NCBI RefSeq assembly: GCF_010731895.1
Contig: NZ_AP022596.1
Coordinates: 2,356,001 to 2,420,000, forward strand
Direction: 5' to 3'
DNA from: Mycolicibacterium helvum
GTDB lineage: Bacteria; Actinomycetota; Actinomycetes; Mycobacteriales; Mycobacteriaceae
DNA: 64,000 bases
Shown: piece by piece, positions 49,440 to 55,113 of the stretch
Layout of the letters: each line of letters opens with the position of its first letter
Numbering within the stretch: position 1 is the stretch's first letter
Notes under the pieces: model-generated
Seen by the model: the letters and a program-made list of their open reading frames with translations, nothing else
Database searches by the model: none
What the model was told of the DNA's origin: nothing
Program-made: the position numbers and the translations under genes

Positions 49440-50603
49440 ATGACGACGACGGAACTACCCGAGACGTACTACGCGGACACGCCGATACCGAGTGGTCGCA
49501 CCGCGGCCGTGGAGTATTTGCAACGGCCAGGACCGGTTTATCGGGTTGGCCGGACGTGGATGATCACCAGCTACGAGGGTGTGCGCTACGCCCAAAAGCA
49601 CCCCGAGCTGTTCTCCTCGGCGAAAGCCTTCGACGGGGTCGTCAACGCGATCAAGATGATCCCGATCGCGATCGACCCGCCCAAGCACGCCGACTACCGG
49701 CGGGTGCTCGACCCGATGTTCGGACCCAAACGCATGGAGGCGATGGACGGCGAGCTGCGTGCCCAGCTGCGCGGGCACATCGATGCGTTCGCTCCGCTCG
49801 GGCGCTGCGACGTCGTCGCAGACCTGTCCTACAAGTTCCCCACCCAGGCGATCCTGACGCTGTTCGGGTTACCGCTGGAACACCTGCCCAAGTTCCTGGA
49901 GTGGGTGACCGGCATCATCAAGGGCGCCGATATCGCGTCCTTGGGCCAGGACCAGCCGCAGCACGTAATCGAGTGCGCCATGGGGCTTTTCGGCTTCCTG
50001 GCCGAGCAGATCGAGGTCAAACGCAGCCATCCGGGCGACGATATGCTCAGCAACATCCTGGCAATCGACGGTGACGCGGCGTGGACCGACGCCGAGATCC
50101 TGGGCCTGTGCTTCCTGATCATCCTGGCTGGCCTGGACACCGTCACCGGTGCCATCGGGTTCTCGTTGCTCACGTTGGCCAACGATCCAGCATTGCGCCG
50201 CCGGCTGATCGACGATCAGTCCCTGATCGCGCCGTTCATCGAAGAGATGCTCCGCCTGGAGGGCCCGGTGCCAGGGGTTCCCCGCGTCACCACCGCCGAC
50301 GTCGAGGTCGAGGGCGTGCAGATCCCGGCGAACTCGCAAGTCATGCTGATGCTGTTCACCGCCAATCGTGAAGGCCCGCACGCGCACCAGATGGACCTGA
50401 CCGCAAAATCCACCCACCTCGGATTCGGCGGCGGTATCCACCGGTGCCTCGGCTCGCATCTGGCCCGCCGCGAACTACGGCTGACCATCGAGGAATTCCA
50501 CGCCCGCATCCCGGACTACCGGCAGGCCGGCGAAGCTACCGTGCTGTGGCCCGCCGGCACCTTCGGTTTGGAGTCGCTGCCGCTGGAATTCGACCCCTGT
50601 TAG
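49440..50603 (+). CDS. Cytochrome P450
   Basis: 387 residues, a soluble bacterial P450. The I-helix oxygen-activation motif is AGLDT (ILAGLDTVTGAIGFSL), the K-helix ExxR lies in EEMLRLEGPVPGVPR, and the heme loop is FGGGIHRCLGSHLARRE with the axial cysteine at 336. The substrate is unknown; electrons must come from a ferredoxin not encoded nearby. The ATG has GGAG directly before it, an unusually close spacing, so a leaderless start is possible. It is divergent from the GntR gene. Confidence 0.95.
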   Translation: MTTTELPETYYADTPIPSGRTAAVEYLQRPGPVYRVGRTWMITSYEGVRYAQKHPELFSSAKAFDGVVNAIKMIPIAIDPPKHADYRRVLDPMFGPKRMEAMDGELRAQLRGHIDAFAPLGRCDVVADLSYKFPTQAILTLFGLPLEHLPKFLEWVTGIIKGADIASLGQDQPQHVIECAMGLFGFLAEQIEVKRSHPGDDMLSNILAIDGDAAWTDAEILGLCFLIILAGLDTVTGAIGFSLLTLANDPALRRRLIDDQSLIAPFIEEMLRLEGPVPGVPRVTTADVEVEGVQIPANSQVMLMLFTANREGPHAHQMDLTAKSTHLGFGGGIHRCLGSHLARRELRLTIEEFHARIPDYRQAGEATVLWPAGTFGLESLPLEFDPC

Positions 50604-51464: not shown

Positions 51465-52364
51465 TCAGCCGCCCAGCACGCCGCGCAGGATCTCGACCAA
51501 TGCGCGGGGCTGATCACCCTGCACCGAGTGGCCGGAGTCGGGTACCACGATCACCCGCTGGAAACCCGGTGCGGTGCGCGCGAATTCGTCGGCGTCGTCG
51601 TCGTTGACGAAGAATGAGTTGGCGCCACGCACCAGTGTGGTCGGAACGGTCAGTCCGGGCACGTCGTCCCACAGGCCCTCGAAGCCGTCGCCCTTGCGGA
51701 ACGTGTCGTAGCGCCAGGTCCAGTTACCATCGTCGAGTTGTTTGGAGTTGTGGAATACCCCGCGGCGCAACGAGTCTCGGTCACGGTGCGGTGCTGCGGC
51801 GATGGTCACGTCGAGCATGGCCTGGAAGCTGGGGAAGGTGCGGTCGCCCTGGACCAGCGCGACGGTTCCCATTTGAGCCTTGGTCATCTGTTCGTGGCGT
51901 TCGGGCGCCGACGGGGTGACGTCCACCAGAACCAGCTTGCGGACCAGGTCGGGTGCGATCGTCGCCAGCCGCAACGCTGTCAGGCCGCCCAGCGACATGC
52001 CGACCACCAGCTCGGCATCGGGCGCCAGCTCACGCACCACCGGTTCGATGGCCTCGGCGTTGAGCCTCGGGCCGTAGTCGCCGTCCGCTCGCCAGGCGGA
52101 GCGACCGTGCCCGGGCAGGTCGACGGCCAGCGCGGGCGTCCCGAGACCGAGGATGACGGTGTCCCAGGTGTGGGCGTTTTGGCCGCCGCCGTGCAGGAAG
52201 ACCACGCGGACCGGGTCGGCGCCCCAGCGCACGGCGCTGATGGTGCCGCGATCGACGCGTTGCACCGGCGGCAGGGGGTCACTCACTGCGGCCTGGGCGG
52301 CGTTTTCGGGCAGCAGCGCGAACTCGTCGAGTCCGATCAATTGGTCGTCGGCGATCTCGGTCAT
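51465..52364 (-). CDS. Alpha/beta hydrolase (Rv0045c-type esterase)
   Basis: 299 residues, like Rv0045c (about 298). Oxyanion region VVFLHGGGQNAHTWDTVI, then AVDLPGHGRSAW, the nucleophile elbow [13 protein letters not shown] and the terminal histidine in VVPDSGHSVQGDQPRALVEILRGVL. The start is the ATG of MTEIADDQLIGLDEF; the 83 upstream residues of the longer frame cover the divergent gene. Rv0045c is a mycobacterial esterase; the natural substrate is not established. Confidence 0.92.
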   Translation of the reverse strand: MTEIADDQLIGLDEFALLPENAAQAAVSDPLPPVQRVDRGTISAVRWGADPVRVVFLHGGGQNAHTWDTVILGLGTPALAVDLPGHGRSAWRADGDYGPRLNAEAIEPVVRELAPDAELVVGMSLGGLTALRLATIAPDLVRKLVLVDVTPSAPERHEQMTKAQMGTVALVQGDRTFPSFQAMLDVTIAAAPHRDRDSLRRGVFHNSKQLDDGNWTWRYDTFRKGDGFEGLWDDVPGLTVPTTLVRGANSFFVNDDDADEFARTAPGFQRVIVVPDSGHSVQGDQPRALVEILRGVLGG

Positions 52365-52443: not shown

Positions 52444-54009
52444 ATGAAATCAGTGAAGCGCCGGGCGTTCCTTGCTGGTGGTGCCGGAGCAGTCGCCGCG
52501 GTGACGGCACAGGCCGCGGTCGCGTGCGCGCCACCGCCACCGCCGTCGCCTGCGCCTGCGGGTGATCCGTCCGCGAGCCTCGGGTTGCCGGACGCGGTGG
52601 CCAAACTGCGCACCAGGTACCTGTCGGAGTTCGAGGTCGACTATGTCGACAACGTCATCGTCCCGTTCCTGATGAACCGCATCACCGAGGGTTCCCGGCC
52701 GGTGTTGCCGATGATCGATGTCGCCCTCAGCAAGGAGAACGCCCTGCCTCAGGATCTGTGGGGCTTGTTGAGCAAGACCTGGGGGCCAGACCCGGAGCAG
52801 GGCGTGACGGTTTTTCTGCAAGGGCTGGAAAAGCGGGGGCCCGACAACCGGCGTAAGCGGATCTACATGTCGGCGGTCACCCCAGACCTGTATCGGGCGG
52901 TGTATCAGCCCAAGGTCGTCGCGTTCTGGAACCAGTTGTTCTCGCCGGCCAACGCCGACAAGCCGTTGATGCGCGTGTATCTGGACACGTTCTGGGATCT
53001 TTACTGGGATCTGCACCTGGGCGTCACAGGGGCCGACATTCCGGCGCAGGTGAAAGAAATCGGCACGAGTTTCATGGCGGTGCTGGCCTACCGCGACGTC
53101 ACCCAGCGCAACGTTCACGACTACTACATGACGGTCCGCCGCAATCTCGACTTCCTGAAATCCTGGATCGACGACCGTCTTGGCGACATCAAGTCCGGGA
53201 AGACCCCCAACCCCAAGGCGACGTTCGCCTGGTACTGGCTCACCAACGGTGAGGAGAGCGAGTACTTCAACCACAAGGACGTCGTCTTCGAGTGCTTCCA
53301 CAACTTCGTGGCGTTCAGCCAGTGGGGCAACAGCCTGTTCAACGTCATGACCAGGCTGGGCCGGGACGGTGGCGATCCGCAGGCCAAGGACTGGTTCGCC
53401 AAGACCATGGCAGGAAGCCCCGATACCGGTGCGCCGTTCCCGCCGCTCGAGCGGCTCGTGATGGAGCTCTTCCGGGTCATCTCACCGAATGCGGGCAGCA
53501 TTTCGGCGCTGTCCGAAACCACGCCGGCGCCGTTCGAACGGCACAGCTACATGGTCAGCCCACACACCACGACCAGCCACGACCCGGTCCAGTGGGTCAA
53601 CCCCGACGCGTTCGACCCGGAGCGCTACACACAGGCTCCGACCAGCGCGCAGATCGACGAGGCCCGGATCAAACAGATGGGGTTGGCGAACTGCCCGTTC
53701 AACCCGGTCGAGTGGCCGGTGAAGGACGGACGCCCAGCCGCGCTGCGTAACAGCGGTTTTGGGACGGTGTTCGGAGTGGCCGACGGTCAGCCGATGCCGG
53801 TGTGCGACTACGCGGGCTTTGCACCCTTCGGCTTCGGCTACCGGCGCTGTCCGGGTGAGCAGCTGACCACGATGGCGTTCGAGGACCTGCTGCGCAAGGT
53901 GTGGACCGACCGGCTGGACTTCATCAAGGTGCCCGGCTCGAGCGCCGAGCAGTTGCCGGTCGGCCCGTCAACGGTCATCACCGACGATATGGGCTTTGTT
54001 CGTCGGTGA
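52444..54009 (+). CDS. P450-like heme protein with a twin-arginine export signal
   Basis: 521 residues. The N-terminus has a Tat-type signal, KRRAFLAGGAGAVAAVTAQA (5-24), followed by VACAP and a Pro-rich stretch. AVAC is a weak lipobox. The body carries P450 landmarks in order: K-helix ExxR as ELFR (341-344), meander DPERY (391-395), and heme loop PFGFGYRRCPG (461-471) with axial cysteine 469. The region where the I-helix should lie (CFHNFVAFSQWGNSLFNVM, 284-302) lacks the A-G-x-[DE]-T oxygen-activation motif. It is thus a member of the heme-thiolate superfamily that may be exported and may not use the usual oxygen chemistry. GAGAGGGG is six bases before the ATG. It is divergent from the hydrolase. 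Confidence 0.82.
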   Translation: MKSVKRRAFLAGGAGAVAAVTAQAAVACAPPPPPSPAPAGDPSASLGLPDAVAKLRTRYLSEFEVDYVDNVIVPFLMNRITEGSRPVLPMIDVALSKENALPQDLWGLLSKTWGPDPEQGVTVFLQGLEKRGPDNRRKRIYMSAVTPDLYRAVYQPKVVAFWNQLFSPANADKPLMRVYLDTFWDLYWDLHLGVTGADIPAQVKEIGTSFMAVLAYRDVTQRNVHDYYMTVRRNLDFLKSWIDDRLGDIKSGKTPNPKATFAWYWLTNGEESEYFNHKDVVFECFHNFVAFSQWGNSLFNVMTRLGRDGGDPQAKDWFAKTMAGSPDTGAPFPPLERLVMELFRVISPNAGSISALSETTPAPFERHSYMVSPHTTTSHDPVQWVNPDAFDPERYTQAPTSAQIDEARIKQMGLANCPFNPVEWPVKDGRPAALRNSGFGTVFGVADGQPMPVCDYAGFAPFGFGYRRCPGEQLTTMAFEDLLRKVWTDRLDFIKVPGSSAEQLPVGPSTVITDDMGFVRR

Positions 54010-54021
54010 TGACCTGACGCC

Positions 54022-55113
54022 CTACTTGTCGTCGATGAAGTCCTCGAGCTGTGCCCGGGCGATGTCGTCGGGCAGCTGCTTGGGCGGGCTCTTCATCAGG
54101 TAGGCCGACGCCGCGACAACCGGTCCGCCGATGCCGCGGTCCTTGGCGATCTTGGCCGCACGTACCGCGTCGATGATGACGCCGGCCGAGTTCGGCGAGT
54201 CCCACACCTCGAGCTTGTACTCCAGGTTCAGCGGCACGTCGCCGAAGGCGCGACCCTCAAGGCGGACGTAGGCCCACTTGCGGTCGTCGAGCCAGCCGAC
54301 GTGATCGGACGGGCCGATGTGGACGTCCTTGGTCTTGAATTCCTTCTGCAGGTTGCTCGTGACGGCCTGGGTCTTGGAGATCTTCTTGCTCTCCAGACGC
54401 TCCCGCTCGAGCATGTTCAGGAAGTCCATGTTGCCGCCGACGTTGAGCTGCATGGTGCGGTCCAGCTGCACACCGCGGTCCTCGAACAGTTTGGCCATAA
54501 CGCGGTGAGTGATGGTCGCGCCGACCTGGCTCTTGATGTCGTCGCCGACGATCGGCACACCGGCTTCCTCGAACTTCTTGGCCCAGACCGGATCCGAGGC
54601 GATGAACACCGGCAGCGCGTTGACGAACGCCACCCCGGCGTCGATGGCGCACTGCGCATAGAACTTGTCGGCCTCTTCCGAACCCACCGGCAGGTAGGAC
54701 ACCAGCACGTCGACTTGAGCGTCCTTGAGCACCTTGACCACGTCGACCGGCTGCTCGTCGGAGATTTCGATGGTCTCGGCGTAGTACTTGCCGATGCCGT
54801 CCAGCGTCGGGCCGCGGTGCACGACGACATCGGTCGGCGGCACGTCAGCGATCTTGATGGTGTTGTTCTCCGACGCGAAGATCGCCTCCGACAGATCGAA
54901 GCCCACCTTCTTGGCGTCGACGTCGAAAGCGGCGACGAACTTCACATCGCGCACGTGGTACGGACCGAGCTTCACGTGCATCAGGCCCGGCACGGTGGCG
55001 TTCGCGTCGGCGTCCTTGTAGTACTCGACGCCCTGGACCAGTGAGGACGCGCAGTTGCCGACGCCGACAATGGCGACTCGCACATCTGCCGATGCTCCGT
55101 TGTGCTCCGTCAT
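54022..55113 (-). CDS. ino1: Inositol-3-phosphate synthase
   Basis: 363 residues. Converts glucose 6-phosphate to inositol 3-phosphate using NAD; needed for phosphatidylinositol mannosides and mycothiol. The Rossmann motif is [16 protein letters not shown], and there are [45 protein letters not shown] and [29 protein letters not shown] segments with the catalytic lysines. It corresponds to Rv0046c. The ATG has AGGAG eight bases upstream. PadR gene follows upstream on the same strand. Confidence 0.97.

Follow-up and report, generated by a model that had tools for sequence, protein, structure and literature searches.

The usual view of P450s in bacteria is that of cytosolic enzymes dependent on ferredoxins, and a conserved family of exported P450-fold proteins would break this rule and raise the question of how a heme-thiolate protein works without NAD(P)H. 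This question is posed by one gene in a 64,000-nucleotide stretch of the Mycolicibacterium helvum genome (assembly GCF_010731895.1, contig NZ_AP022596.1, positions 2,356,001 to 2,420,000), referred to below as the window. The gene encodes a P450-fold protein with an N-terminus of the twin-arginine translocation (Tat) type, for which the fold, the conservation of the signal, the conservation of individual residues and the relationships were computed. On its sequence the protein is assigned to an undescribed, deep-branching P450-fold family, and the evidence leans modestly towards an exported, redox-partner-free heme-thiolate enzyme that would use H2O2 or (lipid) hydroperoxides, export and peroxide use being taken jointly.

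The protein carries both the ExxR motif and the Cys-ligand loop (FxxGxRxCxG) of P450s, together with KRRAFLAGG at residues 5–13, CFHNFVAFSQWG at 284–295 and DPERY at 391–395 (remaining positions in Table 1). It scores 28.7 bits against the curated PF00067 profile (gathering cut-off 22.8), in keeping with a first-pass annotation of this DNA which had described a P450 core with ELFR, DPERY and FGFGYRRCPG; these motifs are present as quoted. All 64 members of set A3 match PF00067 at E ≤ 0.1, and two relatives (L012 and L013) score slightly under the cut-off. The top sequence match in the PDB was CYP120A1 (E 0.0025), and the family profile gets no better than E 0.0016. The same annotation had allowed for a structure lacking the P450 fold; the predicted structure has that fold, and the 50 VIA structure matches listed are all P450s, with neither the unspecific peroxygenase (UPO) fold nor a CYP74 among them, although a list of this length does not exclude either.

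At the N-terminus (MKSVKRRAFLAGGAGAVAAVTAQAAVACAPPPPP), a twin arginine is followed by an uncharged hydrophobic stretch and by a Cys at position 28. The Tat signal proposed earlier (KRRAFLAGG plus a hydrophobic stretch) was assessed with a rule of our own, namely RRx[FILVM][LVIFM] with a hydrophobic stretch and at most one charge. The 120 listed family proteins that were scored include the window's own; 111 pass, one has a charged stretch, and in eight the motif is missing, for several perhaps because the annotated start is too late. Across all three protein searches, 251 of 357 pass, 40 fail despite an RR in the first 60 residues and 66 have no RR. By contrast, the rule is passed by none of the 28 other P450s of the genome and none of four CYP152-like proteins used as controls, and among the 74 GC3-rich open reading frames of at least 100 amino acids in the window it is passed by the P450-fold gene itself and by no other. 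(Throughout, P450 frames came from 28 of 30 own-genome loci, and CYP152-like frames from 4 of 5 or from 45 of 54 loci, with 17 of the 45 used in the MAFFT alignment and the superfamily tree.) Two relatives bear the NCBI product name "twin-arginine translocation signal domain-containing protein".

Compared with the M. sphagni copy (L002), dN/dS is 0.127 over codons 1–28, 0.129 over the core and 0.141 overall; the signal is accordingly translated and under selection. A start codon downstream of the signal in homologues, which the first-pass annotation had allowed for, was rejected, since the signal is conserved and translated in the homologues and dN/dS is low. On this evidence, the window protein is very probably exported by Tat. 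The alternative is a cytosolic protein whose Tat-like N-terminus is not used for export, with which the cyanobacterial-type members without a signal, the eight motif-less proteins and an M. neglectum copy, whose signal stretch and core are in different frames, would be consistent. However, the signal is conserved across phyla, ending with Cys in the mycobacterial clade and with AxA-type ends in the proteobacterial proteins, and its codons show the low dN/dS given above, which makes a cytosolic location quite improbable. The Cys at the lipobox place is restricted to one clade, and as a lipobox-like Cys ends the mycobacterial signals, these proteins are likely Tat lipoproteins. Position −3 of a lipobox is usually Leu or Val; the Ala of the window's A-V-A-C is less usual.

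The I-helix is the second departure from a typical P450. Residues E283, H286, F288, A290 and S292-Q293-W294-G295 are invariant in 119 of 119 family proteins, and the SQWG string occurs in 355 of 357, with P0115 and P0276 the sole two lacking it. The acid-alcohol motif [AG]Gx[DE][TS], present in 22 of the 28 own-genome P450s within residues 180–360, was found in none of the 119 within 20 residues of SQWG, which bears out the earlier remark that the expected acid-threonine pair is missing. When the family was aligned with the 28 own-genome P450s by HHalign (probability 97.1), Q293 stood opposite the acid and a gap beside W294 opposite the Thr. In a MAFFT alignment of 66 P450s, Q293 falls in the acid column, which is also the Asn321 column of the allene oxide synthase AtAOS, while W294-G295 fall on the Trp-Gly of AtAOS and N296 in the Thr column. 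As the two alignments agree on Q293, a Gln at the acid position is regarded as firm.

A family-specific insert also separates the DPERY meander from the Cys loop; it is unaligned against the own-genome P450s and mostly unaligned against CYP152-like proteins, and holds invariant residues (S401, G413, P418, D428-R430, N436, S437 and G440). In other P450s the region before the Cys loop is the proximal, partner-docking face, and for this reason the roughly 60-residue insert may, by analogy, hinder the docking of ferredoxin. No convincing ferredoxin-type partner was found within 4 kb at 19 loci by motif scan. These features bear on the possibility that the protein is exported but is a conventional O2-dependent monooxygenase, fed by an extracytoplasmic donor such as a quinone, cytochrome c or a small reductant. 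Such an enzyme would suit the conserved Cys loop (357/357) and ExxR motif (355/357), the predicted fold, which is that of an ordinary P450, and the signal-less cyanobacterial-type relatives, which could use cytosolic ferredoxin. The absence of the acid-alcohol motif in all 119 proteins, the lack of a convincing partner gene in the motif scan and the insert ahead of the Cys loop point the other way, and a conventional monooxygenase is considered somewhat unlikely.

Direct use of peroxide is proposed instead, because the periplasm and cell envelope lack an NAD(P)H-ferredoxin supply, the motif that activates O2 is absent and the distal helix holds an amide together with Trp-Gly. Proteobacterial and mycobacterial members would fold with their heme in the cytoplasm and would then be exported by Tat to act outside the cytoplasmic membrane, the mycobacterial members probably lipid-anchored and the Gram-negative ones soluble in the periplasm. 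There, H2O2 or an organic (lipid) hydroperoxide bound above the iron would most likely react directly with the heme-thiolate, and Q293, W294 and possibly H286 and E283 would shape O–O cleavage. What we infer is that the protein binds heme, is exported and lipidated, and uses peroxide on a hydrophobic substrate; the mycobacterial member may modify envelope or incoming lipids. The earlier reading of an exported heme-thiolate enzyme is retained in that the P450 fold, the conserved Tat signal and the missing acid-alcohol motif back export without a redox partner; the CYP74 membership is not retained. In its fullest form the proposal is of the first extracytoplasmic bacterial P450-fold family, Tat-exported, lipid-anchored in mycobacteria, soluble and with an outer-membrane partner in some Gram-negatives, using peroxide by means of a Gln-Trp-Gly distal helix and spread between phyla by gene transfer, and to this whole we would give about an even chance.

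A number of observations weigh against this account. The window gene was not among the 61 matched stretches of a whole-genome PF00067 search, from which its divergence from other P450s must be taken as strong, and the Foldseek TM-scores of the model are modest (0.42–0.54 by query, rmsd 6–11). Tat profile models match weakly, PF10518 finding 9 and TIGR01409 6 of the 64 members at a threshold as loose as E 0.1, and the best Tat-type match of the window protein has an E value of 0.18. Within the helix, the register past Q293 at the Thr position differs between HHalign and MAFFT, and the roles given to Q293, W294, H286 and E283 are guesses; moreover, according to PMC13049297, the axial amide can be dispensed with, some self-sufficient CYPs being without it. 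The electron-transfer motif scan of the 19 loci did give five weak matches, three of them iron-sulfur-like (L007, L033, L041) and two CxxCH (L012, L035). Finally, the active site is shared by the cyanobacterial-type relatives, which have no Tat signal, and this suggests that the chemistry does not depend on export.

Table 1. Features of the P450-fold gene and its flanks (window coordinates).
Feature	Position	Strand	Basis
Gene for P450-fold protein, predicted to be Tat-exported; 521 aa, ATG start	52444..54009	+	
Tat signal, residues 5–27 (KRRAFLAGGAGAVAAVTAQAAVA)	52456..52524	+	Rule passed by 111/120 listed family proteins; dN/dS 0.127
Cys28, presumed lipidation site (lipobox-like A-V-A-C), followed by Pro-rich linker	52525..52527	+	Cys here in 62/111 Tat-positive proteins
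I-helix, residues 277–304, broken near 292	53272..53355	+	DSSP of predicted model
ExxR motif ELFR, residues 341–344	53464..53475	+	E[LM]FR in 355/357 family proteins
Family-specific insert of ~60 residues (about 397–457), between DPERY meander and Cys loop	53632..53814	+	
Heme Cys-ligand loop FGFGYRRCPG, residues 462–471, Cys469	53827..53856	+	Y[RK]RC in 357/357
Left flank, alpha/beta hydrolase gene, one edge of insertion site	51465..52364	-	PF12697 E 1.4e-22
Right flank, ino1 (inositol-3-phosphate synthase), other edge of insertion site	54022..55113	-	TIGR03450 719.8 bits

By comparison of gene order, the P450-fold gene is a clean single-gene insertion between the hydrolase gene and ino1. Twenty-two same-genus genomes were sampled, of which 20 gave loci and two none. 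The gap between the two flanking genes is about 1.66 kb in the window and 17–120 bp in 14 of the 20 other loci; in the remainder it is 1366 bp (L143) or unclear (L136), and four have no hydrolase gene in the piece examined. A conventional second P450 (I-helix AGLDT, N-terminus without a twin arginine) was also observed in the window at 49440–50603, 1.8 kb off, adjoining a luciferase-like PF00296 gene.

No partner gene common to all 15 mycobacterial loci (window included) was found. In five of them (L004, L006, L008, L010, L035), the gene adjoins a large membrane protein with a weak, sub-cut-off HATPase_c match and a response regulator, PF00072 being above cut-off in the two regulators tested, with a weak LuxR-type end. 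Directly upstream of the gene in four (L007, L008, L010, L035) is a small membrane protein that matches PLDc_N and SHOCT. Pfam was run on two of the five kinase-type and two of the four PLDc_N/SHOCT loci, the rest being assigned by BLASTP clustering. The kinase-like protein and regulator at these 5 of 15 loci, as well as the atypical active-site helix, would suit an exported P450-fold protein without oxidative catalysis, acting as a heme carrier, sensor or scaffold. Yet the distal-helix residues and the heme ligand are nearly invariant across phyla, unlike those of a decayed enzyme, and a pure carrier would presumably not need the invariant SQWG; a non-catalytic role is judged unlikely and the exported, peroxide-using enzyme is preferred.

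On plasmids of Paraburkholderia and Serratia, a PF13557 outer-membrane barrel lies 3′ of the gene, at 161 and 112 bp, respectively. These barrels (L011:11626-12585 and L012:11583-12512) are 68% identical over 289 residues, and gene and barrel possibly form a two-gene mobile module. A PF13557 protein on a Calothrix plasmid, ~940 bp off, has no BLASTP similarity of note to the other two, and the barrel link therefore rests on two related plasmid loci. A phage origin was considered and rejected, there being no match in phage records; two viral contigs do carry a relative. On these IMG/VR contigs (L030:1375-3234 and L031:141-2000), a 53%-identical Tat-bearing relative was observed beside genes that look, by eye, like capsid and terminase genes, from which it follows that the gene may travel as prophage cargo.

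The family spans the Alpha-, Beta- and Gammaproteobacteria, the mycobacteria and, without the Tat signal, the cyanobacteria. Named relatives came from Mycobacterium, Mycolicibacterium, Bordetella, Neorhizobium, Shinella, Beijerinckia and Mesorhizobium in the first search, from Scytonema, Stenomitos, Calothrix, Leptolyngbya and Crocosphaera in the second, and from Serratia, Yersinia, Paraburkholderia, Martelella and a Verrucomicrobia bin in the third. A family tree of 240 proteins was midpoint-rooted, with P0184 left out. The signal-less type, with an N-terminus MSFFPI..., accounts for 65 tips by N-terminal pattern, and the nine signal-less proteins named in the second search are all cyanobacterial; the signal-less clade has 71 tips and, besides these 65, includes the Tat-bearing P0185 and P0198 and some further tips without a signal. 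P0185 and P0198 were observed as sister to the signal-less clade, so that cyanobacteria would have lost the Tat signal or else it was gained on two occasions. The Cys-bearing proteins (63 tips, with seven more that have no readable signal) group in a single clade (support 0.997), with a non-Cys Tat protein as its sister (0.999). It sits inside a larger clade of 169 (0.988) holding proteobacterial Tat proteins, with some intervening nodes at 0.66–0.78. This arrangement would most simply be read as a proteobacterium-like source having passed the gene to mycobacteria, where the lipidation Cys was gained.

Within the genus the gene is rare. At least 12 of 296 genomes match (own included; up to five candidates scored per genome), nine with full-length open copies (own included), one with the signal apart from the core, one with a two-frame split and one with fragments only. 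In the phylum sample at least one of 396 genomes matches (up to three candidates scored per genome) and in the sample of relatives one of 61, in both cases the own genome. Broken or remnant copies were observed in G078 (L023, L025, L041), G321 (L024, L027), G085 (L026, L029) and G189 (L009); they comprise a two-frame split, a copy reduced to fragments, a second copy left as a remnant beside a full one and a signal out of frame with the core, which suggests ongoing loss of the gene alongside its gain. M. komossense was seen to have two family copies on one contig (L003, L004), ~225 kb apart. The first-pass description of a new kind of mycobacterial activity proves too narrow, as the family has proteobacterial and cyanobacterial members too and few mycobacteria carry the gene (12/296); the lipobox-like Cys, the gene-transfer pattern and the neighbour genes are points that it did not contain.

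Should the family be peroxide-driven, it would offer a practical lead in the form of a self-sufficient P450-fold oxidant that already works extracytoplasmically and exists in hundreds of natural variants. The family also allows a clean test of what stands in for the acid-alcohol pair.

Among known systems, the CYP74 group had been named earlier as the likeness. The local I-helix likeness is real (FSQWG against FNTWGG of AtAOS), as an analogy only: both have an I-helix amide residue followed by an aromatic and a Gly, no acid-Thr pair and possible hydroperoxide chemistry. The two differ in that AOS has Asn where the family has Gln, and in the canonical Cys loop and export signal of the family. 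Asn or Gln occurs in the I-helix of several self-sufficient O–O-cleaving P450s, the examples in part of PMC13049297 being plant AOS Asn321, PGIS Asn287 and LDS NQxQ; PGIS and the fungal LDS/EAS are likened to the family here by description, not by sequence. True membership of CYP74, as an enzyme of the allene oxide synthase or hydroperoxide lyase type, would fit the MAFFT placement of SQ-WG on FNTWG with Q293 in the Asn321 column. However, HHalign of the family against two CYP74 sequences gave a probability of 6.6 over residues 57–131 only, which is no P450-scale match (the own-genome P450s against the same two gave 97.0), and the Cys loop is the canonical FGFGYRRCPG and not the NKQCAGK of AtAOS. 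The superfamily tree separates the family from the 48 other P450s, which group in one clade (support 100, branch of 2.20 substitutions per site). Membership of CYP74 was rejected and is regarded as extremely improbable.

Membership of CYP152 (CypC, P450SPalpha, OleT) was likewise rejected. The CypC model NF053744 is the NCBIfam model matched by most members (51/64, best E 8.3e-8), but the window protein reaches 14.1 bits against a cut-off of 600, a strict one that actinobacterial CYP152-like proteins also fall under, and it has no I-helix Arg-Pro in residues 276–304. Three CYP152-like sequences do have this Arg-Pro, and the family differs in lacking it there and in having the 60-residue insert and the export signal, CYP152 enzymes being cytosolic; the MAFFT alignment puts the CYP152 Arg-Pro three columns before the acid column and was not used to place it. 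HHalign of the family against 45 CYP152-like sequences gave a probability of 96.5 and a score of 80.9, compared with a score of 254.9 for CYP152-like against own-genome P450s. A sister relation was rejected too, as the tree groups CYP152-like proteins, CYP74 and own-genome P450s together against the family, although a deep tree with so long a branch is weak. No CYP152 was found in the window's genus at an NF053744 E value of 1e-80, the 72 of 249 genomes that matched all being outside the genus. By the tests run, we read the family as a separate deep P450 branch, neither CYP74 nor CYP152.

With the ordinary P450s of the same genome the family shares the fold, the ExxR motif and the Cys loop; it differs in its Tat signal (rule passed by 0/28 of them) and in lacking the acid-Thr motif that 22/28 carry within residues 180–360. 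CYP139 of M. tuberculosis is named in PMC5293778 as one of the secreted proteins predicted by software. No exported or Tat-borne P450 of the present kind was found among the papers listed from the open-access literature searched, subscription papers lying outside it. The closest functional counterparts would be the fungal UPOs and the bacterial UPOs (BUPOs), the latter described in part of PMC13394420 (2026) as heme-thiolate peroxygenases of the UPO fold, many with predicted Sec-type or lipoprotein signals. These are exported heme-thiolate enzymes, and their use of H2O2 is the activity proposed for the family. BUPOs have the UPO fold and Sec-type signals, whereas in this family a Tat signal is joined to the P450 fold, which makes it a parallel and not a relative; if the proposal is true, it would be the P450-fold parallel to the secreted UPOs.
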